Of a stretch of DNA of 24,413 nucleotides, positions 5,440-21,267 are shown in pieces. How positions within the stretch are numbered: the stretch's first letter is position 1; every line of letters begins with the position of its first letter. The notes below the pieces were generated by a model, which was not told where the DNA came from, did not search any database, and saw nothing but the letters and a program-made list of their open reading frames with translations. A program made the position numbers and the translations under genes. The stretch is from a virus, in the IMG/VR virus record IMGVR_UViG_3300027522_000036, positions 1 to 24,413 of that record; one strand, 5' to 3'.

Positions 5440-8322
5440 ATGGCAGAAAATATAATTTCACCAGGTGTATTTACAAGAGAAAATGATCTTTCATTTTTAC
5501 CTCAAGGAATAGGAGCAATAGGAGCAGCAATTATTGGGCCTACAGTAAAAGGACCAGCATTCGTACCAACAGTAGTAAATAGTTTTGCAGACTATGAAAG
5601 ACGATTCGGACCGTTAAGTTCAGAAACATATGTTCCACAAACAGTTAGAGAATACTTAAAAAATGCAGGATCAGTTACAGTATGTAGAGTACTAGCAGGA
5701 GGAGGCTATACATATGCTAATGGTACTAATGAATTTATCGCAGTAGCAGCTTCAGGATCAGTAGGACAACCAAGTTTATTATTAGGAGCAATTTTCCCCT
5801 CTAAAGCAATATCAAAACCAGATTTAGGTTCAACTACTATTACAGGTAATACTGGAAATACAACTACTTTTACAGATGATTTTACTTTAACTTTAGCAGG
5901 TACTAATGTTACTTCAACAGCTATAGACGCTAATATAAGTCCATCTAGTAAAAAATATTTATTTAAACAATTAGGATACACACCTAATAATAGTAAAACA
6001 TCTACCACTGCTTATGCAGGAACTCCTGGTTACACTTATGTTAATTTTAAAAACTTACAAACAAATATAGCAGCAGCAACTACTAAAGAAGCAGCAACAA
6101 TTACTTTTGCTTTAGGTACAACTACAGCAATTAGAACTGGTAGTATTATGTCAACAGCAGCTGTAGGTAGAGCTATAGTATTATCTGATTCAGATGAAAA
6201 TAGATACACACTTGCTTTTAGTAGTTCAAATGCATCTGTAGGCGCACCAGTCCATTCAACTACAACAGGATTAACAGGTTCATTTGTATCTGTAGATGTT
6301 TCAGCATTAGACACATTAGGTTCTGTATCACAATCTGTTTTAGCTTCTACTTTTGCAACAGCTGTTAATACGCTAGCTGCTTTTACAGCATCCTCAGCAG
6401 CAGGTGTTGTTACAATAACTGCTAATGAAGCAGGAACAGCAATAGACATAATAAATCAAAGTATGCCATCAGCTTCTGTTGCAGTAACAACTCAGGGAGC
6501 AGATGTAGCAGGATATTTAGGAATAGCTTCTGATAATGAAGTAGAAATTATCACCCAATCAGCTGGTATGACATTTAGTGGAGAAATTGGCCAAACAGAA
6601 GGATATGGATATGCTTCTACACCATTTATCCAATCACAAATAGCATTAGGAAGAAAATCATTATTTAAATTCCACACATTAGATCATGGTAAACATTTAT
6701 GTCATGATTATAAAATTTCAATCGCTAATTTAAAAGAGTCAGGAGATATTGATGGTATTGAACAATATTCTCAATTCTCAGTTCTTTTAAGAAGATATAA
6801 TGATCTTGATAAAAGTCCAGTAATTTTAGAACAATATAATAATGTAAATTTAGACCCAGATTCTTCACGTTATATTGCAAGAGTAATTGGAGACAGATAC
6901 CCACAATATAATGATACATTAGGAAAAGTAGAATTACTTGGAAACTATCCAAATATTTCAAATTATATTAGAGTAGAAGTAGATGTAGCAGTAGATGAAA
7001 AAGCAACTTCTCCTAAATTATCACCAAAAGGATTCGCAGCAGTAAAAGATACTATAAATACAGCATCTTTAGCAGTAAATTGCTCTTTCCCTTCAGCTTC
7101 TTATGAAGGAACACAAGTAGTAGGAAATAATTATAATACTAAAGCATATTTAGGATTTAAATTTAAAGAAAAAGACTCAGATAACGAAAACTTCCTAAAC
7201 CCATTACCTGATGGAGCAGTATCTAACGTAGCAGGAAATTTCAATGTTGAAAATTATTCGGGTCATGCAGATTCATCATTATGGACAGGTTCATTAAGTG
7301 CTTCAGTTGACTCAACAGGAGCAACAGGACCTACATCTAACCAACTTAAATTCTCAATACCTTTCCAAGGTGGAGATGATGGTATTAGACCAGATATTGT
7401 AAAACAAATTGGATCTAATATTAAAAATAATAACTTATATGGATTTGATTTAAGTTCAACATCAGCAGCAGGTTATGTAGGATATAAGAAAGCAATAGAT
7501 ATTCTCTCTAACCAAGATGAATATGACATTAATATGTTAGCTATGCCCGGTGTTATACATTCATTACACCCACTAGTTACAAATGCTGGTATTGATATGT
7601 GTGAAGAAAGAGGAGATGCATTTTTTGTAATGGATTTAAATGAAGTAGATGCTTCAGTAAACACCGCTGTAAGCAATGTAAGTGGTATAGACACCAACTA
7701 CGCTGCAGTTTATTATCCATGGGTTAAAGTACTTGATACTGCCGCTAATAAGCCAGTATTAGTACCACCATCAGTAATAGTACCAGGAGCTATAGCAGCT
7801 TCAGATAGAATTGGAGCTGAATGGTTTGCACCTGCGGGTTTAAATAGAGGTATTTTAGGAAATGTATTAGAAGCTAAAATAAGATTAAACCAAGCTGAAA
7901 GAGATGTTTTATACGATTCTAAAATTAATCCAATAGCAACATTCCCAGCAACTGGGGTTTGTATTTGGGGTCAGAAAACATTACAAGAAAGACCAACAGC
8001 TTTAGATAGAATTAATGTTAGAAGATTACTAATCACAGTTAAGAAATTTATTGCAAGTTCTTCTAAATATTTAGTATTTGAACAAAATACAACAGCAACA
8101 AGAAATAGATTCTTAAATATTGTTAATCCATATTTAGAATCAATTCAACAAAGACAAGGATTATACGCATTTAGAGTACAAATGGATGAAAGTAATAATA
8201 CCCCAGATGTAGTTGATAGAAACCAATTAGTAGGTGGTATTTATTTACAACCAACTAAAACAGCTGAATTTATAATCTTAGACTTTAATATATTACCAAC
8301 AGGAGCAACATTCCCTGCATAA
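5440..8322 (+). CDS. gp18: contractile tail sheath protein (gp18-like)
   Basis: This is the contractile outer sheath that drives the tail tube through the host envelope. Residues 1-90 are a classic sheath N-terminus: SPGVFTRENDLSFLPQGIGA, then IGPTVKGPAFVPTVVNSFADYERRFG and VREYLKNAGSVTVCRVL. The conserved C-terminus starts near residue 775 (VLVPPSVIVPGAIAASDRIG) and includes WFAPAGLNRGIL, LYDSKINPIATFPATGVCIWG and RRLLITVKKFIASSSKYLVFE, which in this family form the core and the linker arms between subunits. At 960 aa it is much longer than T4 gp18 (659 aa). Roughly residues 105-380 are an Ala/Thr/Ser-rich, beta-like insertion that should face outward. It is followed by the tube gene, as in T4. 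Confidence 0.96.
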   Translation: MAENIISPGVFTRENDLSFLPQGIGAIGAAIIGPTVKGPAFVPTVVNSFADYERRFGPLSSETYVPQTVREYLKNAGSVTVCRVLAGGGYTYANGTNEFIAVAASGSVGQPSLLLGAIFPSKAISKPDLGSTTITGNTGNTTTFTDDFTLTLAGTNVTSTAIDANISPSSKKYLFKQLGYTPNNSKTSTTAYAGTPGYTYVNFKNLQTNIAAATTKEAATITFALGTTTAIRTGSIMSTAAVGRAIVLSDSDENRYTLAFSSSNASVGAPVHSTTTGLTGSFVSVDVSALDTLGSVSQSVLASTFATAVNTLAAFTASSAAGVVTITANEAGTAIDIINQSMPSASVAVTTQGADVAGYLGIASDNEVEIITQSAGMTFSGEIGQTEGYGYASTPFIQSQIALGRKSLFKFHTLDHGKHLCHDYKISIANLKESGDIDGIEQYSQFSVLLRRYNDLDKSPVILEQYNNVNLDPDSSRYIARVIGDRYPQYNDTLGKVELLGNYPNISNYIRVEVDVAVDEKATSPKLSPKGFAAVKDTINTASLAVNCSFPSASYEGTQVVGNNYNTKAYLGFKFKEKDSDNENFLNPLPDGAVSNVAGNFNVENYSGHADSSLWTGSLSASVDSTGATGPTSNQLKFSIPFQGGDDGIRPDIVKQIGSNIKNNNLYGFDLSSTSAAGYVGYKKAIDILSNQDEYDINMLAMPGVIHSLHPLVTNAGIDMCEERGDAFFVMDLNEVDASVNTAVSNVSGIDTNYAAVYYPWVKVLDTAANKPVLVPPSVIVPGAIAASDRIGAEWFAPAGLNRGILGNVLEAKIRLNQAERDVLYDSKINPIATFPATGVCIWGQKTLQERPTALDRINVRRLLITVKKFIASSSKYLVFEQNTTATRNRFLNIVNPYLESIQQRQGLYAFRVQMDESNNTPDVVDRNQLVGGIYLQPTKTAEFIILDFNILPTGATFPA

Positions 8323-8374: not shown

Positions 8375-8860
8375 ATGGCAATATTAGATACAAACGAAAT
8401 GATGTTCACAGCATTTGAACCTAAATTACAAAATAGGTTTATAATGTACATCGATGGAATCCCAGCATTCCTAGTTAAAAAAGTAGGACGACCAAATATT
8501 CAATTTGGAGACGTAACACTTGACCACATTAATGTGAAAAGAAAATTAAAAGGAAAAGCTGATTGGCAAGATATTACTTGTGATCTTTATGATCCAGTAA
8601 CACCATCAGGTGCACAAGCTGTAATGGAATGGGTTCGTTTGTCTCATGAATCAGTTACAGGTAGAGATGGTTATTCTGATTTCTATAAAAAAGACATTAG
8701 ATTTAACGCATTAGGACCTGTAGGTGATGTTGTTGAAGAGTGGATTTTAAAAGGAGCTTATTGTAAACAAGCAAATTTTGGAGATGCAGATTGGACTTCA
8801 GAAACTCCAATGAACATTAATCTTACTATTAGAATGGATTACGCCATCTTAAATTACTAA
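8375..8860 (+). CDS. gp19: tail tube protein (gp19-like)
   Basis: This 161-aa protein forms the hexameric rings of the inner tail tube and is close in length to T4 gp19 (163 aa). Typical features are FEPKLQNRFIMYIDGIPAFL at residues 14-33, an LDHINVKRKLKGKADWQDIT stretch around 49-68, LYDPVTPSGAQAVMEW, and a C-terminal strand TPMNINLTIRMDYAILNY. The gene directly follows the sheath gene, the standard order, and both begin with an identical AAAAAGATGGCA context. It is closed by the strong terminator at 8881-8907. Identity is secure. Confidence 0.95.
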   Translation: MAILDTNEMMFTAFEPKLQNRFIMYIDGIPAFLVKKVGRPNIQFGDVTLDHINVKRKLKGKADWQDITCDLYDPVTPSGAQAVMEWVRLSHESVTGRDGYSDFYKKDIRFNALGPVGDVVEEWILKGAYCKQANFGDADWTSETPMNINLTIRMDYAILNY

Positions 8861-8880
8861 AAGTTAACTTATATAAAAGA

Positions 8881-8907
8881 AAAGCGCCTAATTTGGCGCT
8901 TTTTTTG
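8881..8907 (+). terminator. intrinsic terminator after the tube gene
   Basis: The 8-bp perfect stem AAAGCGCC (8881-8888) / GGCGCTTT (8895-8902) has a 6-nt loop TAATTT and runs into an uninterrupted T tract to 8906. It is GC-rich compared with its surroundings. It should end the sheath/tube transcript before the baseplate/tail-assembly genes. Confidence 0.9.
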
Positions 8908-8956: not shown

Positions 8957-9709
8957 ATGAAAGAAACAAAACACCAATTTCCAACAGAGGAAGTTACATT
9001 ACCATCAAAGGGTTTATTATACCCAAAAGAATCACCCCTTTCAAAAGGAGTCGTCGAAATTAAATATATGACGGCTAAAGAAGAGGACATTCTAACAAAT
9101 CAAAATTATATACAAAAAGGAACAGTAATTGACAAATTATTAAAATCACTTATTGTAACACCTATTGATTATAATGATTTACTAACAGGAGACAAAAATG
9201 CTATTCTTATTGCTGCTCGTATTTTAGGGTACGGTAAAGATTATGACTTTAAATATCAAGACGAAGATGCAAGTGTTGATCTTAGTGAATTAGAAGACAA
9301 GGAATTAGATGAAAGTTTAATTGTAGAAGGTAAAAATGAATTTGATTTTACATTACCATTTTCTAAAAAATCAATTACATTTAAACTTTTAACCCAAGCA
9401 GATGATACTAAAATTCAAAATGAGTTAAAAGGTCTTAAAAAAATTAACAAAAATTCTAATCCAGAAAATACAACACGTTTAAAACATACAATTTTGTCTG
9501 TTGATGGTGATATTACACCAAAAACAATTAGAGAATTTGTAGACAATTCATTGTTAGCAAGAGATGCAAGAGAGTTAAGAAAATATATAACTCATGTGTC
9601 TCCTGATGTGGATCTAAATGTAAGTTTAACTTTAGGGGATGGAGAAGTAATAGAAGATATTACTTTGCCCATCGGTGTTAACTTTTTTTGGCCTGACGTC
9701 GAATTATAG
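8957..9709 (+). CDS. T4-type baseplate / tail-assembly protein (gp26-like)
   Basis: This 250-aa protein resembles the T4 baseplate protein family (gp26-like hub or tail-assembly factor). The N-terminus has LPSKGLLYPKESPLSKGVVE followed by IKYMTAKEEDILTNQNYIQK, then LLKSLIVTPIDYNDLLTGDK and IAARILGYGKDYDF, a series I recognise from this family across T4-like phages. It ends GVNFFWPDVEL. It sits directly upstream of the tape measure, the usual place of tail-assembly chaperones. Its last 35 bases overlap a second open frame at a seven-T run, so a minority of ribosomes may produce a longer fusion of about 328-329 aa (see the site at 9680-9691). The family name is confident; hub component versus assembly chaperone is not settled. 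Confidence 0.85.
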   Translation: MKETKHQFPTEEVTLPSKGLLYPKESPLSKGVVEIKYMTAKEEDILTNQNYIQKGTVIDKLLKSLIVTPIDYNDLLTGDKNAILIAARILGYGKDYDFKYQDEDASVDLSELEDKELDESLIVEGKNEFDFTLPFSKKSITFKLLTQADDTKIQNELKGLKKINKNSNPENTTRLKHTILSVDGDITPKTIREFVDNSLLARDARELRKYITHVSPDVDLNVSLTLGDGEVIEDITLPIGVNFFWPDVEL

Positions 9710-9944
9710 AAGTATTATATTCCAACAGATCCATGATCTAGTGTATCACGGTAAAGGCGGCTTTTTACACTCTGAGGTTTATAATATGCCCATATGGATG
9801 AGAAGATTCCATATACAAAAAATAAATAAGTTTTTAGAAAAACAAAATGAAGAAGTAAGAAAACAACAAGGAAATGAAGAAATGGGAGATGACAAACAAG
9901 TTCATGGACCCAATATTTCACCTTCTTCAACATTTAATTTTTAA
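9675..9944 (+). CDS. downstream half of a probable frameshifted tail-assembly chaperone
   Basis: This is a second frame (+1 relative to the gene at 8957). It is read as 89 aa from GTG 9675, but that GTG lies inside the upstream gene and has no recognisable ribosome-binding context. More likely it is entered by frameshift on the T7 run at 9683-9689, adding about 84 residues beginning G-L-T-S-N-Y-R. The product has IHDLVYHGKGGFLHSEVYNM then PIWMRRFHIQKINKFLEKQN and a polar tail. This W-M-R-R-F-H-like helical segment fits short tail-assembly proteins encoded just before tape measures. An internal ATG at 9786 could give a 52-aa product instead. The coding nature is well supported by the terminator right behind the stop. 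Confidence 0.75.
   Translation: MLTFFGLTSNYRSIIFQQIHDLVYHGKGGFLHSEVYNMPIWMRRFHIQKINKFLEKQNEEVRKQQGNEEMGDDKQVHGPNISPSSTFNF
9680..9691 (+). other. candidate programmed frameshift site (AAC TTT TTT TGG)
   Basis: The upstream frame reads AAC TTT TTT TGG CCT and stops at 9707. The seven-T run lets the Phe tRNA on TTT 9686-9688 re-pair perfectly after a +1 step or a -2 step; both lead into the GGC CTG ACG frame, open to 9944. A -1 slip meets TGA within three codons, so it would not work. Polymerase slippage on the T run could produce the same fusion. Confidence 0.5.
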
Positions 9945-9948
9945 GTAG

Positions 9949-9976
9949 AGGCATCGTATGATGCCTTTATTTTTTT
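9949..9976 (+). terminator. intrinsic terminator ahead of the tape measure gene
   Basis: The perfect 7-bp stem AGGCATC (9949-9955) / GATGCCT (9960-9966) with loop GTAT is followed by TTATTTTTT. It directly follows the stop at 9944. It separates the tail-assembly pair from the tape measure operon, a separation echoed by a candidate promoter right behind it. Confidence 0.88.
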
Positions 9977-10003: not shown

Positions 10004-12592
10004 ATGGCAGACAATAAAAACGAAAACATAGATAAGGAAAACGAAGAAAAAAGCAAAAAAGCTTTTGGTCCTGATAAAGCTTCATTAAAAGCTCAACAAG
10101 AGTATTTTGATAAGGCAGTAGACTTAAATGATCAACTTAAATTTCAAGTTAGTAACCTCAATCAAATAACAGCAATTGATAGGGAACAAGTAAAACTTTC
10201 TAATCAATTAGTACAAACTGCCAAAAAGTTAAAAGGAGAATATTTAGACCAAAAAGATTTAAGTAAAGAAGTTAAGAAAATTGGAGCCTCAAAGGTTGCT
10301 CAACAAAAGGTACAAAATAATTTAAGCAAACAATTTACTGACACAGAAAAAAAACAAATGCTGTTTGCTATGAATAAAGAAACAGGCATTAAAAACCAGA
10401 AAAATGAATTAGCACAAATTATAGCTCAAGATGCTAAAGGTTTAGCAATTGATGAAAAACGAAAAGGAGAATTAGAAAAACGAATTTCTAGTCAGCAGAA
10501 AGGTTTAGCTACTAGTATGAAAAACTTTAGTGCTGAGGAAAAAGCTTATATAATAGGTGAGAAAAACCTAAAATTAACTAAAGAAATGGAAGCTGCATTA
10601 AAAGCAGAAGAAGTAAAACTTGGTGAAATTAATAATGCTATGGGCTTGTCTGGACAAGGTCTTAAAACCATAAATAAATTATTTGGGGGAGCCCTTGGAA
10701 ACACAGATAAAATACTAGACAGTAGTAAAAAAGAACTAAAAGTTCTTCAAAAACAAGGAAAATTAAGGAAGGGAATGGGTGGTAAATTACAAGGTTTATC
10801 TATTATAGCTAAAAATGTAGGTAAATCATTTATGGCCAATCTTTATGACCCTTTAACTTACATAAAAATAGCATTAGATTATTCAGCTCAAATTAATAAG
10901 TTTCAAAAGTCAATGGGCCTATCTTACCTCCAAGCAGCAAGTTTAAAAGGTGAAATGACCGAAATAGCAGCTGCAAGTGGTAATATGGCTATTAACTCTA
11001 AAAAGGTATCAGAAACCTTTAGTGCACTTAACCAACAATTTGGCACTGCATCTACAACCCTAGCTACGATGTTCCCTGAAGTAGTTGAAGAAGCAACTAA
11101 GTTACAACACCTAATGGGCCTTTCTGCTAAATCAACAGCCGAATTTGCAAAAATGGCTATAGTATCTGGTAAACCATTAAAAGATATTAAAGAAGATACT
11201 ATTGGAGCGGTTAAAGCGGCAGAAGCAGAAACAGGAGCTAGGTTAAACATTAAAGAAGTAATGGAAGCTACTGGTCAAGTAACGGGCCAAATTAAAGCCC
11301 AATTAGCTGCAAATCCAGAAGCAATAGCAAAAGCAGTAGCAGTTGCTAAACAATTTGGGATGGAATTAAAAGACATAGAAGCTACTTCTAAATCATTACT
11401 CCAATTTGAATCTTCTATAGAAGCAGAATTAAAAGCAGAATTATTAACAGGTAAACAACTTAATTTAGAAAAAGCAAGATTAGCAGCATTAACTGGTGAT
11501 TATGAAACATTAGCTAGAGAAATTAATGAACAAGTAGGTACTTTTGCAGATTTTTCTCAAATGAATGTTTTACAACAAGATGCATTAGCAAAATCTTTAG
11601 GTATGACTTCAGATGGATTATCTGAGCAGTTATTAAAAAAGGCTAATTTAGTAGAATTAGCCCAAGAAGCAAGAGCAGAAGGAAATGAAGAATTAGCACT
11701 CCAACTAGAAGCCCGAAGTGCTTCAGAAAAATTCCAAGATGTTGTAACTAAAATATCAGGAGTATTTTCTGACTTAGTAGGAGGACCATTAGCAGGGTTT
11801 ATAGATTTATTAGGAAGTGCTTTAAGTATAGTAGGGTATATCCTTCAACCAATAGGATATATAGCAGGTGCTGTAGCTAAAGTTGCTTCTTTTGATTTTA
11901 AAAACATGACCGTTCTACAAGGAATAGTCGGAACTATAGCAACTGTTTTAATGGGTATAAAAGCTACATCAATGGCTATTAATGCATATAGAACAATAGC
12001 TCACGGTATAGAAGTAAGAATTCGACTTGCAAAAATAAGACAAGCAAGTGAAACAAAGAGTATGACAATAATGGATAAAGCATTATTATTAATGACAGGT
12101 AAAAGAGCAGTAGGTGAAAATGTAGTTAATCAAGGTAAAAGAAGAGGAAATACATTAGGACTTGGAGGAATGTTAAGACAAGCAGGACAGTTTGTACTTA
12201 AAATGTTCACTGCAATGCCCTTTCCCCTTAATTTAGCTGTGGGAGCACTAGGTGCAGGAATAGCAGCAGGACTAATAGGTAAATTTAGTAAAGGAGATGA
12301 TGTTATGTCACCTGGATATGGAAAAAGAGTATTATCTACCCCAGAAGGATCAATAGCATTAAATAATAGAGACACAGTTATAGCAGGAACTGATTTAACG
12401 CAAGGAGATGATGTAATAAGTGGACCCCCAGGATCTGTATCAACTGCCCCCGCTATAGATTATAAGGAAATGGCGGCTGCTATGTCAACTGTACAAGTTA
12501 ATTCACAAATGAATTATGATCCATATGCTGCACGTAGTTCTCAAGGTGGTGTGTTTTATTCAAATCAAGCTGAACAAAATAAAATACCTTAA
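10004..12592 (+). CDS. tail tape measure protein
   Basis: This 862-aa protein sets tail length and is packed inside the tube. Residues 1-230 are charged and coiled-coil (QKVQNNLSKQFTDTEKKQML and similar). Residues 280-570 are an Ala-rich helical region with many AxxxA patterns (KGEMTEIAAASGNMAI). From about 579 to 770 there are hydrophobic stretches usual in tape measures: GPLAGFIDLLGSALSIVGYI, a second near MTVLQGIVGTIATVLMG, and FPLNLAVGALGAGIAAGLIG near 738. These are the segments thought to enter the host membrane at injection. T4 gp29 is 590 aa, so if length scales as usual this tail should be longer. It follows the tail-assembly genes, as in most tailed phages. No peptidase or lysozyme domain is recognised. 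Confidence 0.85.
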   Translation: MADNKNENIDKENEEKSKKAFGPDKASLKAQQEYFDKAVDLNDQLKFQVSNLNQITAIDREQVKLSNQLVQTAKKLKGEYLDQKDLSKEVKKIGASKVAQQKVQNNLSKQFTDTEKKQMLFAMNKETGIKNQKNELAQIIAQDAKGLAIDEKRKGELEKRISSQQKGLATSMKNFSAEEKAYIIGEKNLKLTKEMEAALKAEEVKLGEINNAMGLSGQGLKTINKLFGGALGNTDKILDSSKKELKVLQKQGKLRKGMGGKLQGLSIIAKNVGKSFMANLYDPLTYIKIALDYSAQINKFQKSMGLSYLQAASLKGEMTEIAAASGNMAINSKKVSETFSALNQQFGTASTTLATMFPEVVEEATKLQHLMGLSAKSTAEFAKMAIVSGKPLKDIKEDTIGAVKAAEAETGARLNIKEVMEATGQVTGQIKAQLAANPEAIAKAVAVAKQFGMELKDIEATSKSLLQFESSIEAELKAELLTGKQLNLEKARLAALTGDYETLAREINEQVGTFADFSQMNVLQQDALAKSLGMTSDGLSEQLLKKANLVELAQEARAEGNEELALQLEARSASEKFQDVVTKISGVFSDLVGGPLAGFIDLLGSALSIVGYILQPIGYIAGAVAKVASFDFKNMTVLQGIVGTIATVLMGIKATSMAINAYRTIAHGIEVRIRLAKIRQASETKSMTIMDKALLLMTGKRAVGENVVNQGKRRGNTLGLGGMLRQAGQFVLKMFTAMPFPLNLAVGALGAGIAAGLIGKFSKGDDVMSPGYGKRVLSTPEGSIALNNRDTVIAGTDLTQGDDVISGPPGSVSTAPAIDYKEMAAAMSTVQVNSQMNYDPYAARSSQGGVFYSNQAEQNKIP

Positions 12593-13936: not shown

Positions 13937-16900
13937 ATGGCTTTAAGATTATTACTTACAAATTTAGAGGGGGGAGGATTAAATCTCTATCCTAACCATA
14001 ATACTCCATCTACTTCAGGAGGTTTTAATTATGGTGGATCTACTTCTATATTTGATAATAAACTATTTAGACAAAAATCTTTTAAATTTGGTCAAGGAAC
14101 TACATTTGATAGACCTAATGGGGGTTTTAGTAGTGAACCTTTTGTAACAAGTCCTACAATAGATTTATTATCAGGAAATCCTGGTTTAGAAACAACAATA
14201 AATACATTTACTGATGGTTTTATAAGAGGTGGTGCTATAACACATGCTGAAAGATTAATTACAGATGGGGAAAGAATAGGAAGATTTTTAATTTCACCTA
14301 AAGGTTTAGCGTTTATTACTAAACAAGTAGGACTACAATTAACTAATCCTAAAGTAAGTAGGCCAGGTAGGGGTATTTCTAAAGCAAATCAAAGAACTTA
14401 TAATTTAGGTATAAATACTTTAGCATCAGTAGCGTCAGCAGGAACTGGACTTTATGTTAAAAGAGAAGGATTAACACCTTTAGCACATGCGGGGTATGCT
14501 CAAGCTAAACAATTATTTGAAGATAATGATAATAATAGATTAATAAATTTATTTGAAGATCATATAGAACAACAAACAACTGTAGAAGGTCTACCAGAAA
14601 AGGAAAGAAGTAGATTAGGTCAATTCTTTTATAATATAGGACAAGGTCTTAAAAAAGCTAAAAAATTTGTATTAGGGGGTAGTGATGGTGAAACATTATA
14701 TGCTTATAATGGTGGACCTGGGTCGTTATTTGGTATAGGAAGAACAAGAATAAAAAAATACGCTCCTTATGTTACAGATGTAGGAGAAAATGGAATACCA
14801 AGAGGTTCTTTTACTACAGGTTATTTTGATGGAAGTAGATTTTCACCAATTGCTTTAGGTTTATCTTCTGGTGTGTCAAATGTATTTGTAGCTAATTTTA
14901 GAGAACTTAATGGAGTTAATGTAGATTTATTCCCTGAATTACATGAATCACTTCAAGAAGCATTCATAGCAGGAGGTTTTGGAGAACAAGCTTCTGGAAA
15001 GGGTGGAAATCCATTAGCTGCTAGTAAAAATGATATAAGAGATTCAAAAACTGTTGTAGGTAAAAATGCAGATAGTGTAGAATTAGGATTTAGATATTCA
15101 AATTCTAATCATAATTTTTTACCAGGGGGTAAATTTATAATAAACCAGGAAAATCTTCAAGAGGATTCTGATTTTGAAACAGCTAATCAATACTTACTTA
15201 AACCTAGTAAATTTATATTAAGTAATAAAATACTTAATACATTTAAAACTTTTGATTTTGATGGTTTACTTAGTATATATAATAATAGAAAATACTATGG
15301 TTTACTCTATGATGATGGTGAAGATTATAGTATCCGCTATCCAGAATACCAATATGATCCAGAAGCTAAAGAAAAACTTAGTTTAGAGAATTCAAAAACT
15401 ATTGGAAACCAATACCATAGAGTATTTTCTACTAGAAGAATAGGAGTAGGAGGAGAAATGTCAGAAGAAAGATCAACTGATCAACCTTTCTTACCCGGGG
15501 GAGGATACACTAATTATATTGATTCTGTTAATTTTATATCTGAAATAGAAAGAGACCCATCATTATCTCATTTTTCTAGACACAGTAGCTATTCCTTAAA
15601 AAGAACAGAATCTCATGTAGAAAGTTACAAAACCCTTTTTGGTGGGGAATTACCTGATCCTCTTACTGTATTAACAACAGATTTAGACACAGCTAATGGT
15701 CAATATAACCCAGAAGACATATTACTTTCTGCTCCCAAATCAATAATATTTGGAGAAGCAAGATCAATAAAAGGATTAAAAGATGGAATGCCAGGATATA
15801 GTTTATTACTTAAAAATTTAGGATATAATCCTCTTACATTTCAATCAAACAAGGAAATAAATATAGGAGGTAATATCATACAGGAAGCAGGAAAAGAAGC
15901 TTTAGTTCCATGGATAAATTCATATGGGGTATATGAGGGCAAAAGAGGTAATGTAGCTTTGTTTCAAAAATATAAAGATCCATTTGGGGATGAATCAACT
16001 ACTGAATTTTTTGAAGACAGTGCAGGATTTATACGTTTTAAGTCAGCTGAATATGATAAAGATTTAGAAACTTTAAATCTTGAACCTGATAATGGTAATT
16101 CTTTTAACCCTAAAACCTATTTTTCTAGTAATCCTAATTATAAATTATCTCTTACAAGTATTCAAGATTTTCGAAAGATAAAAAAAGATGTATTAGGAGA
16201 TGATTATATACAACCTTTTACAGATTATCAACAACAAACTAATCATGGTAGAAGATTTTATAGAGAAGATCGTGTAGGTACAGGTACTCCAGGTAAAAAA
16301 ATAGATGGAGTTAAAGGTAAAAATATATTGGGAGAAGACACAGAATCCTATGACATTTTTGATGAAGCAACAATAGATAAAATAAACGCACTTGATATAT
16401 TTAAAAATGATGATTCTTCATTTGAACAAGCAAATCAAAGAGATTTAATAAGATTCAGAATAGAAGCCTTAGATGGAGATGATCCCTCTAAATCAGAAGT
16501 AATGACTTTTAGAGCATTTTTAGATGGGTTTGGGGATAATTACACGGGTACATGGAATGGATTTAAATACAATGGTAGAGCAGAGAATTTTTACACTTAT
16601 AGTGGTTTTGATAGAAAAATAAATTTTGCGTTTAAAATAGCAGCCCAATCAAGACACGAAATGATACCATTATATAGAAAATTAAATTATTTAGTATCAC
16701 AAACAGCCCCAGATTATAAAAATACAAGAATGAGAGGTAATTTTTGTAGACTAACTATTGGTTCTATGATAGATAGAACACCTGGGTTTTTTACATCTAT
16801 AAATTTAAAATGGCAAAAAGATTATCCTTGGGATATATCATTAAATCACTTAGAAAATGGTGAAGATAAAGATGGAGCACAAGTAATGCCTCATATTATG

Positions 16901-17080
16901 GATGTTACTTGTCAATTTACACCAATCCATAACTTTATACCTAAAAAATCAATTACAGATTCACCTTTTATTTTATCTCATCATAATAATAGAACATTAA
17001 GCCCTAAACAAAAATGGTATAAATATGGTTCAGCTGAATCATCTAAAAAAGCATTTTTACAACATAAATCAGATTTATAA
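13937..17080 (+). CDS. large baseplate protein with tube-initiator-like C-terminus (gp48/gp54-like)
   Basis: This is a 1047-aa protein. The N-terminal 80 residues are Gly/Asn/Phe-rich (GGFNYGGSTSIFDNKLFRQK). Residues 80-250 are helical, with EQQTTVEGLPEKERSRLGQF. The long middle is unassigned. The C-terminal 210 residues (from about 831) read RFRIEALDGDDPSKSEVMTF, GTWNGFKYNGRAENFYTYSG, FAFKIAAQSRHEMIPLYRKL, then MRGNFCRLTIGSMIDRTPGF. That pattern is close to a tail-tube-like fold used by T4 gp48/gp54-type tube caps and initiators; the assignment is from memory of the family. It starts 6 nt after the repeat protein and stops 2 nt before gp53, so it is tightly coupled to baseplate genes. At 1047 aa it is much larger than either T4 counterpart. 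Confidence 0.65.
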   Translation: MALRLLLTNLEGGGLNLYPNHNTPSTSGGFNYGGSTSIFDNKLFRQKSFKFGQGTTFDRPNGGFSSEPFVTSPTIDLLSGNPGLETTINTFTDGFIRGGAITHAERLITDGERIGRFLISPKGLAFITKQVGLQLTNPKVSRPGRGISKANQRTYNLGINTLASVASAGTGLYVKREGLTPLAHAGYAQAKQLFEDNDNNRLINLFEDHIEQQTTVEGLPEKERSRLGQFFYNIGQGLKKAKKFVLGGSDGETLYAYNGGPGSLFGIGRTRIKKYAPYVTDVGENGIPRGSFTTGYFDGSRFSPIALGLSSGVSNVFVANFRELNGVNVDLFPELHESLQEAFIAGGFGEQASGKGGNPLAASKNDIRDSKTVVGKNADSVELGFRYSNSNHNFLPGGKFIINQENLQEDSDFETANQYLLKPSKFILSNKILNTFKTFDFDGLLSIYNNRKYYGLLYDDGEDYSIRYPEYQYDPEAKEKLSLENSKTIGNQYHRVFSTRRIGVGGEMSEERSTDQPFLPGGGYTNYIDSVNFISEIERDPSLSHFSRHSSYSLKRTESHVESYKTLFGGELPDPLTVLTTDLDTANGQYNPEDILLSAPKSIIFGEARSIKGLKDGMPGYSLLLKNLGYNPLTFQSNKEINIGGNIIQEAGKEALVPWINSYGVYEGKRGNVALFQKYKDPFGDESTTEFFEDSAGFIRFKSAEYDKDLETLNLEPDNGNSFNPKTYFSSNPNYKLSLTSIQDFRKIKKDVLGDDYIQPFTDYQQQTNHGRRFYREDRVGTGTPGKKIDGVKGKNILGEDTESYDIFDEATIDKINALDIFKNDDSSFEQANQRDLIRFRIEALDGDDPSKSEVMTFRAFLDGFGDNYTGTWNGFKYNGRAENFYTYSGFDRKINFAFKIAAQSRHEMIPLYRKLNYLVSQTAPDYKNTRMRGNFCRLTIGSMIDRTPGFFTSINLKWQKDYPWDISLNHLENGEDKDGAQVMPHIMDVTCQFTPIHNFIPKKSITDSPFILSHHNNRTLSPKQKWYKYGSAESSKKAFLQHKSDL

Positions 17081-17385: not shown

Positions 17386-20300
17386 ATGTCTATTTTTAAA
17401 GAAAGTTTTAGAAATTTTATAAAACAACAAATTAAAATCAGAGAAACTATTATTTCTAAAGGCAATAATAATGATTCTAGATTTGATACACATACTGTTG
17501 ACTTAAGTAAAGAAGGAGGAAAAAATATAACACTTCCTGGTGGAGCTTTTTTTACTAACACAGTAAGCAGACAATGTGTTATTAGAATGTCTTCGGGATG
17601 TGATCTAACAGATTTTGGAGCTATAGACATTCATGAAGGACGTCCTTATGAAAAAGCAAGCCATATAAAAGGAAGTGGTTTAGCTCGAAGATATGTTCTA
17701 CAAGGAGGAACTTTAGCTATCGATAGAGAAACCATAGAACGTAGTGACGTCACAGAAAATTCTACTGAAGTAAATAATAATGTAGATAAAGGAACTTCAT
17801 TTGAAACAGGTGTCACAACATCAACAAGAACTCGAAACGAAAAATATAAATTTAAATTAGGAAATAGAAGTGGATTTAGAGGTGCTTCTCCAAACGATTT
17901 CGGTACAGCTTATGGTGATCCTACTATTAGAGCTAACCCAGGAGAAGATTATGGATCAGTACCTATGCCAGGTATTAAAACAGCTAATATTAGAACAAAA
18001 TCAGCTTATGGTTCTTTAAGAGAAGCTAAAGTTGAATTTACATGTTATAATCAACGTCAATTAGAAGCTTTAGAATTACTTTATATGAGACCTGGTATCC
18101 CTATTTTATTAGAATGGGGTTGGTCTCCTTATATTAATAATAAAGGAAAAAGAGTTTTAGATTTTCCTTTTATAGGAGAATGGTGGATTAGTGAAATGTC
18201 TATGGATACTATTAATAGAAAAATAATAGAAGAAAAGGTAAAGTCAGGTGGAAATTATGACGCTATATCAGGAATGTGTAAAAACTTTTCTTATAAAGCA
18301 AGAACTGATGGGGGGTATGATTGCACAACAGAAATAATAGCGGCAGGAGAAATAATTGAAACTTTAAAAGGAAACTCAATAACAATAGGTCTTAAAGGAA
18401 GTGAAGAAACTAAAACATTATCAGGAGAAGGCCTCGCAGCAGCAGAACATGATATATTATACTTAGGATTATTTGATATGATGCAATATTCATATGCAAC
18501 TGATAGAACGACAGATGCAGGAGGAGATAAAAGAAGTAATTTTTCAATGAATTTTTATCAATCATTTGGTCCCAGTTTTTGGGACTCAGGAACAGATATT
18601 GAGAATAAATTAGATAGGATAAAGTCATTAGCTACAGGAAAATTATATGCTCCTAGTCCTACTAATAAAATAGGAAATTATTTTGGGTTAGATTATAATG
18701 AACATGACGAAGAGGACGCAGATGTATTAAAAACTTTTATCCTTACTGAAGATAGTTTTTTTAAAGATGAAGGAGAATATTACATAAATTCACCTTACAT
18801 AAGGTGGGATGCTTTTTGTACTTTTTTAAACAGATTTGTTATAAATACAGATGGATTAGGAAACCCATTAGTTACTTTTTCTACAAATACTGTAGTTGCA
18901 GAAGATGAAGAAAAACCTCAAGTATCCCCCTTATTAATGTCAAGAATAAATGTTGAAGGAATACCTCTTCATAAAAAACCTGGAAAAGTACTTACCTCAA
19001 TTGCTGCAGATATTGCCCCACCCGGTGCACTAAACAACTTTACAGCACATTTTCCCTTAGGAAGTGTTTTAAATAGTTCTGTAGATCCTAGTATATGTTT
19101 GTTTCCCGAACAACTTAGTTTATCTAAAAATGGTAAATTTAATACTGTAATGTACTATGGGGCAATGCTAGCAGGATTTGGTATTGGAGCTGTAGCAAGT
19201 GGGGGAACAGCAGCAGGGGCGGGAATGGTAGTAGGAGCTGAATTATATAAATCATGGGCGGGTAGAACTGATATGCGATCTAATAATAGAAACATTAGAA
19301 ATATAGGTCATATTTATATAAATTTACATAGACTTCTTTATATCTATAAAGAACAAAGATTTAATAGTGAGGGAGAATTAAATGATGATTTTAATTTATA
19401 TGATTTTATTAAAAAATTATGGGATGATATATCAGCAGCTTCAGGAAATAAATATAAATTTATAATACATAATGACACAGAAAGACCAAGTGTGTTAAGA
19501 ATTATAGATGCTAACTTTCAAAAAGATGATGAATTAACACCTGATAAAATCCATGAATTAAAAATACAAAGTAATGACACTATTTGTAGAGATTTTTCAT
19601 ACAATTCAATAATTCCTAATGAATTATCTGCTACTATAGGTGTTGCTATGCAAAATCCAGACAGCATACAAGATATAGATGGAGCTACTTTTGCTGCTAT
19701 GGCTAGAGGTATACAAAGTAGATTTCATGTTGCATCAAAAAAGGAAAAACAAAAACCATCTAAAGATGAAAAACAAGCTTCAGCTGATGCCTATAATAAA
19801 TTATCACAAGATACTATAGATTTATTTGAGGGATTAGCTCAATATACTGCTAATACTATGAGTGGTGATAATCAAAAAGTAGATGAAGAAAGTGGAGAAA
19901 TTGAAGGTCAAGAAGAAATATCACAAGCAAGAGTAGATCTAAAATCATTTTATAATAAAATAAATAAAATTGAAACACTTCATTTCTCTGATGGTATATA
20001 CCCTAATGGAGTAGAATATCATAAAGGTTATAAAATACAAGTACAAAATGCACCTCCCGTTTCTTCAGTAATACCTTTAAAATTTAATGCTAAAATGGAT
20101 GGTATAGGAGGAATAACAATAGGAAATGTATTTAAAGTAGATCCTACAAGATTACCTAAAGCCTATAAAGCATCAGACATAGCCTTTGTTTGTATGGGAG
20201 AACAACAAGAAATAACTGCAGGACAAGATTGGGTAACAAACATACATGGACAATTAGTACTTTTACCTAAAGAAAAAGGGGTAGGGGGAGGAGAAATGAA

Positions 20301-21267
20301 AAATAAAAAGGGGAGTGCTCATGGGGGAGATGGAACAGGAACAAAAAATGGTGGAGGAACACTTGGAAATACTGATGTAGTATCAGATACAGATGTTGAT
20401 TCAGATTCTAATAATGAAATAATAAGTAATAATGCTGTATCTAATCCTGCAGATATATTAGATAGTATTGACAACAATGAATTAGAAACAGAACAAGAAA
20501 TTTACGAAAGAGAAATTGATGCAGAAATGGAAAGACAAGCAGAAGAACAATCTGTAAATGAAGAAGAAGCACAAGCTAAAGAAGAAAGAGTACTTGAAAA
20601 ATACCCACAATGGAAAAAACAATTAGCTTTATATGTAGCAAGTTATAGAAGAGCTAGAGTATTTGGAACTACTGGAGGAAGATGGGAGAATGGACCTAAT
20701 TTTCTTAATGGTATTGTTTTTCTTGATCCAGCAAATAACACAATAGATGTTGCCTGGGCATTTTTCCAAAATGCTGTAAAATATGCAAAAAATATAAGAA
20801 TTCTTGCAAAGGGTATTGAGAATGAATTATTAGCTAAATTAAAAAAAGATTTACCTAAAGGATTTGAAACAATAGATCCAGTAGGGGGAGAAACAGCATA
20901 TGAAATATCAGGTGGTTATGTTATTAACCCAAATATTGAAAATAGACAGCTGGTTAGTAGCGCAGAAGAAATACATGCAGAACCACTAAAACCTAAAAAC
21001 GAGGGGGCATACAACCCAACAATGAAGGAGATTTATAGCACAGTTAATGCAGCTTGTTCAAGGGCCTTTAAAGATGCAATAACTCCTTTATCACTTCGAG
21101 ACTCGTATTTGCAAAAAACCTATTCAAAATATCAAGATGAAAATAATAATAATTGGGATTCAAGCCAAGTAAATACAACTTCAGGAAATTACGTTGCTTA
21201 TTATGAACTAGGTCAATGGGGTACAGAAAGAAAAGATATAGAATTATATAATAAAAGAAATAAATAA
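17386..21267 (+). CDS. very large baseplate hub-like protein
   Basis: This is a 1293-aa protein. Residues 195-310 carry AKVEFTCYNQRQLEALELLY, then MRPGIPILLEWGWSPY and GEWWISEMSMD, a pattern I associate with gp27/VgrG-type hub domains of contractile tails, with further beta domains to about 530. Near 588-627 is a long Gly/Ala hydrophobic stretch (AMLAGFGIGAVASGGTAAGA) that looks membrane-active. A region around 870-960 contains FNAKMDGIGGITIGNVFKVD and VTNIHGQLVLLPKEK. A Gly/Asp linker at 963-1020 and an acidic coiled coil (EQEIYEREIDAEMERQAEEQ) lead to a 240-aa globular C-terminus with no recognised lysozyme residues. It follows gp53 directly and precedes another late gene by 5 nt. Hub is the best call; domain boundaries are approximate. 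Confidence 0.6.
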   Translation: MSIFKESFRNFIKQQIKIRETIISKGNNNDSRFDTHTVDLSKEGGKNITLPGGAFFTNTVSRQCVIRMSSGCDLTDFGAIDIHEGRPYEKASHIKGSGLARRYVLQGGTLAIDRETIERSDVTENSTEVNNNVDKGTSFETGVTTSTRTRNEKYKFKLGNRSGFRGASPNDFGTAYGDPTIRANPGEDYGSVPMPGIKTANIRTKSAYGSLREAKVEFTCYNQRQLEALELLYMRPGIPILLEWGWSPYINNKGKRVLDFPFIGEWWISEMSMDTINRKIIEEKVKSGGNYDAISGMCKNFSYKARTDGGYDCTTEIIAAGEIIETLKGNSITIGLKGSEETKTLSGEGLAAAEHDILYLGLFDMMQYSYATDRTTDAGGDKRSNFSMNFYQSFGPSFWDSGTDIENKLDRIKSLATGKLYAPSPTNKIGNYFGLDYNEHDEEDADVLKTFILTEDSFFKDEGEYYINSPYIRWDAFCTFLNRFVINTDGLGNPLVTFSTNTVVAEDEEKPQVSPLLMSRINVEGIPLHKKPGKVLTSIAADIAPPGALNNFTAHFPLGSVLNSSVDPSICLFPEQLSLSKNGKFNTVMYYGAMLAGFGIGAVASGGTAAGAGMVVGAELYKSWAGRTDMRSNNRNIRNIGHIYINLHRLLYIYKEQRFNSEGELNDDFNLYDFIKKLWDDISAASGNKYKFIIHNDTERPSVLRIIDANFQKDDELTPDKIHELKIQSNDTICRDFSYNSIIPNELSATIGVAMQNPDSIQDIDGATFAAMARGIQSRFHVASKKEKQKPSKDEKQASADAYNKLSQDTIDLFEGLAQYTANTMSGDNQKVDEESGEIEGQEEISQARVDLKSFYNKINKIETLHFSDGIYPNGVEYHKGYKIQVQNAPPVSSVIPLKFNAKMDGIGGITIGNVFKVDPTRLPKAYKASDIAFVCMGEQQEITAGQDWVTNIHGQLVLLPKEKGVGGGEMKNKKGSAHGGDGTGTKNGGGTLGNTDVVSDTDVDSDSNNEIISNNAVSNPADILDSIDNNELETEQEIYEREIDAEMERQAEEQSVNEEEAQAKEERVLEKYPQWKKQLALYVASYRRARVFGTTGGRWENGPNFLNGIVFLDPANNTIDVAWAFFQNAVKYAKNIRILAKGIENELLAKLKKDLPKGFETIDPVGGETAYEISGGYVINPNIENRQLVSSAEEIHAEPLKPKNEGAYNPTMKEIYSTVNAACSRAFKDAITPLSLRDSYLQKTYSKYQDENNNNWDSSQVNTTSGNYVAYYELGQWGTERKDIELYNKRNK

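Follow-up and report, generated by a model that had tools for sequence, protein, structure and literature searches.

Frameshifting in phage tail assembly chaperone genes is known from lambda G/GT and related systems (Levin 1993; Xu 2004; reviewed in PMC5009743). A myovirus, phage Adele, has a -1 frameshift in its tail chaperone locus (PMC12846349). Forward shifts have been described as well: the chaperone frameshift of the haloarchaeal virus HSTV-2 is very likely +1 (PMC5009743), and for the frameshifted genes of actinophages, most of which encode chaperones, both -1 and +1 have been reported (PMC10885494). Phage T4 was given in a 2016 review as an exception to tail chaperone frameshifting (PMC5009743). 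Vladimirov et al. (2022), as cited in two other papers (PMC10885494, PMC12846349), accounted for this by separate genes: T4-like phages have one chaperone gene for the short form and one for the fused form. According to a 2010 paper, cyanophage gp51 has only ~20% of the length found in other T4-like phages (PMC3037559). Outside tail genes, the +1 frameshift of prfB uses CTTTGA, in some genomes TTTTTGA (PMC12421855), and influenza PA-X uses UCC_UUU_CGU, in which UUU_CGU gives the +1 shift (PMC3498833).

Here we describe a 24.4-kb contig of a bacterial virus (the window, that is, the whole stretch of DNA that was analyzed), which carries a contractile-tail gene cluster and in which a gp26-like gene runs into a second open frame. 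Sequence comparison leads us to propose that a programmed +1 frameshift joins the gp26-like gene to a downstream T domain, giving a 250-aa and a 328-aa form of the chaperone, and we put the probability of this reading at about 0.88.

Results

The locus and the junction of the two frames

The features of the region are the following.

5440 to 8322: tail sheath (profile match).
8375 to 8860, plus strand: tail tube protein, presumed to interact with the T domain (phrog_4542, E 9.5e-26).
8877 to 8906, plus strand: terminator-like hairpin after the tube gene and upstream of the chaperone gene (consensus match only).
8957 to 9709, plus strand: gp26-like tail assembly chaperone, short (G or TAC-N) form, zero frame, 250 aa (PF12322, phrog_150).
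8957 to 9944, plus strand: predicted fusion (TAC-NC form) of the gp26-like part and the T domain, 328 aa.
9683 to 9691, plus strand: putative frameshift site TTT_TTT_TGG, conserved codon by codon, with variants across 159 dereplicated loci.
9690 to 9944, plus strand: T domain in the +1 frame, 84 codons (9690-9941) plus stop, C-terminal part of the predicted fusion.
9694 to 9696, plus strand: TGA that would end a -1 shift immediately (sequence).
9943 to 9972, plus strand: terminator-like hairpin directly after the T-domain stop (consensus match only).
10004 to 12592, plus strand: tape measure protein, presumed to interact with the short form (BLASTP match, 5e-38, to the protein annotated as tape measure in Flavobacterium phage immuto).

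The gp26-like protein matches PF12322 over residues 27-244 (E 1.1e-5, 25.7 bits, cut-off 24.5) and phrog_150 (baseplate hub) with an E-value of 9.7e-14. PF12322 (T4_baseplate) is the family of T4 gp26 and gp51. The tape measure gene lies immediately 3' of the chaperone gene, as in frameshifted tail assembly chaperone pairs. Consensus matching found four terminator-like hairpins in the region, with 0.4 expected, and the two that flank the chaperone pair fit a single transcription unit ending with the T domain. The tail sheath protein is unusually long (960 aa), and its profile matches fall in two stretches. Two further large proteins of the tail/baseplate cluster, of 1047 aa (13937-17080) and 1293 aa (17386-21267), are without a Pfam match.

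The gp26-like open reading frame ends in GVNFFWPDVEL and a stop codon. As the original prediction had described, its last 35 bases are overlapped by a second frame, and seven Ts stand at 9683-9689. The second frame is the +1 frame, which is open from 9654 to 9944, the listed open reading frame (9675-9944) beginning at GTG 9675. At the junction the zero frame reads GTT AAC TTT TTT TGG CCT GAC, so that the T run is read as AAC TTT TTT TGG, and the +1 frame reads TTT GGC CTG ACG. The in-frame motif TTT_TTT_T occurs only once among the 7,520 codons of the window's genes. The early TGA in the -1 frame, also foreseen, is present.

In the mechanism that we propose, most ribosomes would terminate at 9707-9709 and make the 250-aa protein. 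In a minority, tRNA-Phe would sit on UUU (9686-9688) in the P site while the ribosome pauses over the Trp codon UGG (9689-9691) in the A site; the tRNA would then slip one base forward onto UUU (9687-9689), and reading would resume at GGC. The slipped ribosomes would yield the 328-aa fusion with the junction N-F-F-G. By analogy with lambda, the abundant short form may coat the tape measure protein, with recruitment of the tail tube protein left to the T domain of the rare long form.

Conservation of the site among relatives

A total of 296 IMG/VR stretches encode gp26-like relatives, of which 80 were kept. The second frame is +1 in all 80 loci and in Flavobacterium phage immuto and Microcystis phage Mel-JY01. 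In 37 dereplicated relatives we analyzed codon usage in the 101 gp26 columns with a conserved amino acid, leaving out Met and Trp. Only five of these columns contain a single codon (AAC, TTT, TTT, CCT and GAC), and all five surround the invariant TGG. Seven Ts, or TTT, are by themselves weak evidence because the DNA is AT-rich and TTT makes up 86% of the Phe codons in the gp26 genes of these relatives. The strong evidence for a conserved site lies in the fixation of AAC and in the Leu variants, always CTT: the Asn before the Phe pair is AAC in 30/30 cases, compared with 27% elsewhere, and Leu at the site is CTT in 4/4, compared with 17% elsewhere. The fixation of CCT and GAC may be due to the coding of the second frame itself.

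Two wider profile scans supplied extra loci, and a T-domain hidden Markov model (HMM) was run on all three forward frames. Of the 165 loci not in the first set it matched 155, with 154 matches in the +1 frame and one in the -1 frame. Together there are ~160 distinct +1 relatives (dereplicated set, n = 159), sampled as the loci that the scans returned; the locus counts are not independent because the sequences are related. Thirty-six dereplicated loci have both frames open past the stop; all but one (L275, left ambiguous) were assigned to +1 by the T-domain HMM or by membership of the first set.

Across the ~160 dereplicated +1 relatives the predicted shift falls at the same C-terminal codons, mostly YUU_U. 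Variants among the 159 loci include V_TTT_TTT_TGG, V_TTT_TTT_TAC, V_TTT_CTT_TGG and N_TTC_TTT_T. What the variants of the putative site have in common is YUU in the P site with a U or C after it. The T run was considered as an essential element and rejected, since the CTT and TTC variants keep the +1 frame. The original prediction of a shift on the T run needs correction in this respect: the run of seven is not essential, as variants such as CTT_TGG, TTC_TTT_TGG and UUU_CGU illustrate.

More distant phages with ~25% identity extend this picture. RM378 has TCC TTT TTT TGG, and in SP-15, LIS04 and GXN1 the second frame is open in +1. The same frame is open in BRock, with UUU_CGC, and in L291, with UUU_CGU. 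UUU_CGC or UUU_CGU is found at the shift site of BRock, GXN1 and L291 (loci L255, L087 and L291), the last being a phage-like stretch in an Erysipelotrichaceae MAG. The re-pairing rule accounts less well for LIS04 (TTT_TTT_AGT) and L277 (TTC_TTT_ATT). L196 (GAT TTT TTT TGG GCT) has a U before Phe-Phe, against the no-U rule of the +1 group, and its contig ends before the second frame.

We also looked for stimulatory elements. Among the 37 relatives there is no conserved RNA structure (mean folding z of about -0.4 downstream and -0.25 upstream), and their 37 upstream sequences contain no consistent Shine-Dalgarno-like stimulator, the GGGG of the PIGV codons being found in some only. A purine run like the prfB AGGGGG, three bases upstream, is likewise absent at that spacing from these 37 sequences. 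The A site holds the sense codon UGG and not a stop codon, which counts against the model.

Relatives with a -1 shift and the T4 pair

More distant PF12322 relatives, namely, cyanophages, rhizobiophages and jumbo phages, carry U_UUU_UUN at the corresponding codons, and their second frame is -1. They include XacN1, OLIVR5, PA5oct, Atu_ph07, 121Q, RaK2, CBB, Vibrio 2.275.O, SCTP-2, phiM9, cyanophage P-HM1 and others. After dereplication U_UUU_UUN is present in 22/23 -1 loci, compared with 0/159 +1 loci; the remaining -1 locus, L265, has A_AAU_UUU. Those +1 loci in which a U precedes Phe-Phe begin the pair with TTC, so that the heptamer is interrupted. A quickly built 91-row tree, with many weak branches, needs approximately three changes of direction and places a -1 clade (L090, L262 and L264) among +1 lineages. 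In these three loci the T frame has an ATG near the gp26 stop, which makes an independent start possible; the junction of L090, at the 3' end of its gp26-like gene, reads GGT TTT TTC TTC.

T4 gp26 and gp51 each match PF12322 over its full length, and gp51 has 48 further residues. In a full-length profile comparison, gp51 aligns with the -1 fusions of the cyanophage and rhizobiophages over both domains (E 4e-15). The -1 T domains are matched by the gp51 C terminus alone (E 1e-8) and by the +1 T domains (E 1e-9). The direct comparison of the gp51 C terminus with the +1 T domain is not significant (E 0.31), so that the link runs through the -1 T domains. In the 91-row tree T4 gp26 and gp51 adjoin the cyanophage and rhizobiophage clade. 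The short cyanophage forms of gp51 are best read as a frameshifted T domain.

In public records the T domain of P-HM1, phiM9, OLIVR5 and immuto appears as a short separate gene ('gp51' or hypothetical) with a downstream start; in all four the T frame is open back to the slippery site. The separately annotated T domains have the following coordinates in their own loci.

L289, 1714-1875.
L288, 1687-1866.
L252, 3244-3384.
L001, 4232-4342.

Predicted fold and affinities of the T domain

An AlphaFold2 model of the fusion (37 rows) has a mean pLDDT of 85.5; the gp26 part is well predicted, and the T domain is helical with lower confidence. A Foldseek search against the PDB gave no significant match. 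When 494 PDB chains were realigned, the top two were YqbN (3klu, Z 6.1) and the HK97 tail assembly chaperone (2ob9, Z 5.3), both aligned over residues 1-94. The resemblance of the modeled fold to the HK97 chaperone is only suggestive. The T domain (9690-9941) has a sub-threshold match to Pfam DUF6760 (E 5.7e-4, 20.3 bits versus 27), a family of unknown function. A profile scan of genome contigs for a link to chromosomal contractile injection systems returned one phage-like locus only.

Alternative explanations

The two frames could be expressed in other ways, the least improbable of which is that the T domain is a separate protein, made by re-initiation after the gp26 stop or from a rare start codon. 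The annotations of P-HM1, phiM9 and OLIVR5 list a short 'gp51' downstream, and the window has GTG 9675 and GTG 9741. These two and ATG 9786 are the only ATG, GTG or TTG codons of the second frame near the junction, and the last two fall within the conserved T domain. Rare starts are possible in most relatives, since all seven NTG/ATN codons are missing in only 3/159 loci. However, in 48 of the 159 dereplicated +1 loci the stretch from the second frame's upstream stop to 15 codons beyond the site contains no ATG, GTG or TTG, and in 57/159 a second-frame stop lies no more than 5 codons upstream of the site. Moreover, conservation of the second frame begins at the shift site (GLTxxYR), codons upstream of the site are fixed in a region where a stop often closes the second frame, and the slip motif predicts the frame of the second open reading frame. 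The second frame thus appears to lack a credible start codon of its own, in agreement with the original prediction, and we consider a separate T protein improbable.

Marginally less probable is a -2 slip, as in phage Mu (PMC5009743), which would reach the same frame with the junction N-F-F-F-G. In the window UUU re-pairs equally well two bases back, and the original prediction had left +1 and -2 side by side. What decides between them is the first codon of the Phe pair, which is TTC in nine dereplicated loci (e.g., TTC_TTT_TGG and TTC_CTT_TGG). In these loci -2 puts the P-site tRNA on UCU or UCC, and +1 is mostly UUU to UUU or CUU to UUU. Because the TTC variants re-pair only at +1, we prefer +1; Mu-type re-pairing is not maintained across the relatives. 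In addition, the pair is preceded by different codons in different loci (AAC, AGC, GAG, TCA and others), which would not let two tRNAs re-pair together at -2. RNA polymerase slippage, giving an mRNA one U shorter or two longer that is decoded in the standard way, would have a plausible site in seven Ts in an AT-rich context, but many relatives keep +1 with short T runs (TTTCTTTGG, TTCTTTTAC, TTCCTTTGG and TTCTTTCGT), and the variants that are allowed obey codon-anticodon rules rather than run length; we regard it as very improbable. A lone contig could also have an indel in its T run; against such an error, or a chance overlap, the arrangement recurs in ~160 dereplicated loci and in isolated, finished phage genomes, which leaves this explanation with hardly any weight.

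Discussion

Our work supports a programmed shift in the gp26-like gene and, of the two directions originally proposed, the forward one. The fused frame, the site and the +1 direction are supported by comparative sequence, and by analogy with lambda we infer the efficiency of the shift, the ratio of short to long form, a pause at UGG and a function in tail assembly. Relatives with separate starts for the two frames, or with both proteins kept and the site lost, had been named beforehand as counterevidence; the relatives show the opposite. Frameshifting in tail chaperones was already known, and the division of the T4 pair into gp26 and gp51 genes is already published and no novelty of this work. 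New here is a probable forward shift at a YUU_U site in the PF12322 family.

These findings suggest that a large environmental branch of the T4 gp26/gp51 family shifts +1 as a rule, at codons that serve for -1 in other branches. We lean toward the view that the Phe-Phe pair is a two-way recoding hotspot throughout PF12322, in which U_UUU_UUN leads to -1, and +1 results from a non-U base or TTC with YUU_U or UUU_C after it, with approximately three switches of direction and an exit of T4 by gene duplication; +1 may be the commonest form in aquatic T4-related phages. The family would thus offer a natural comparative system for the determinants of frameshift direction, down to the single base before Phe-Phe, and a simple candidate bacterial +1 signal, YUU_UGG, that includes neither a stop codon nor a Shine-Dalgarno element nor any evident RNA structure. 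It would also correct many annotations that at present lack the T domain or give it, as 'gp51', a doubtful start.

Among the known systems, lambda G/GT resembles the arrangement proposed for the window, in which a chaperone with a short and a longer, fused form is encoded ahead of the tape measure gene. However, lambda shifts -1, and the window, with its second frame in +1 and a base other than U before Phe-Phe, has no lambda-type X_XXY_YYZ site; the PF12322 family is moreover unrelated to lambda G/GT by sequence. The -1 chaperone loci of myoviruses share a poly-T slippery site near the 3' end, and those of the PF12322 family use the very same Phe-Phe codons, with U_UUU_UUN where the +1 group has a non-U base or TTC. 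HSTV-2 and some actinophages share with the window the +1 direction and a tail assembly chaperone, but their protein families differ. The original prediction called a +1 or -2 site on a T run unusual for a T4-like genome; in tail assembly chaperones +1 is uncommon but has precedents in these viruses (PMC5009743, PMC10885494).

The slip itself is most like that of prfB (RF2), in which a P-site YUU followed by U moves one base forward, and this motif is present as TTT_T in the window and as CTT_T and TTT_T in relatives; prfB has UGA in the A site and an AGGGGG stimulator, whereas the window has the Trp codon UGG and no AGGGGG. In influenza PA-X a P-site UUU likewise slips +1 before a presumably slow codon, as it would at the UUU_CGU or UUU_CGC of GXN1, L291 and BRock, although PA-X belongs to a eukaryotic virus and an unrelated gene. 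T4 belongs to the same protein family, its gp26 being the counterpart of the short form and its gp51 that of the fused form. T4 uses separate genes for the two forms, whereas the window would obtain both from one gene and a +1 shift.
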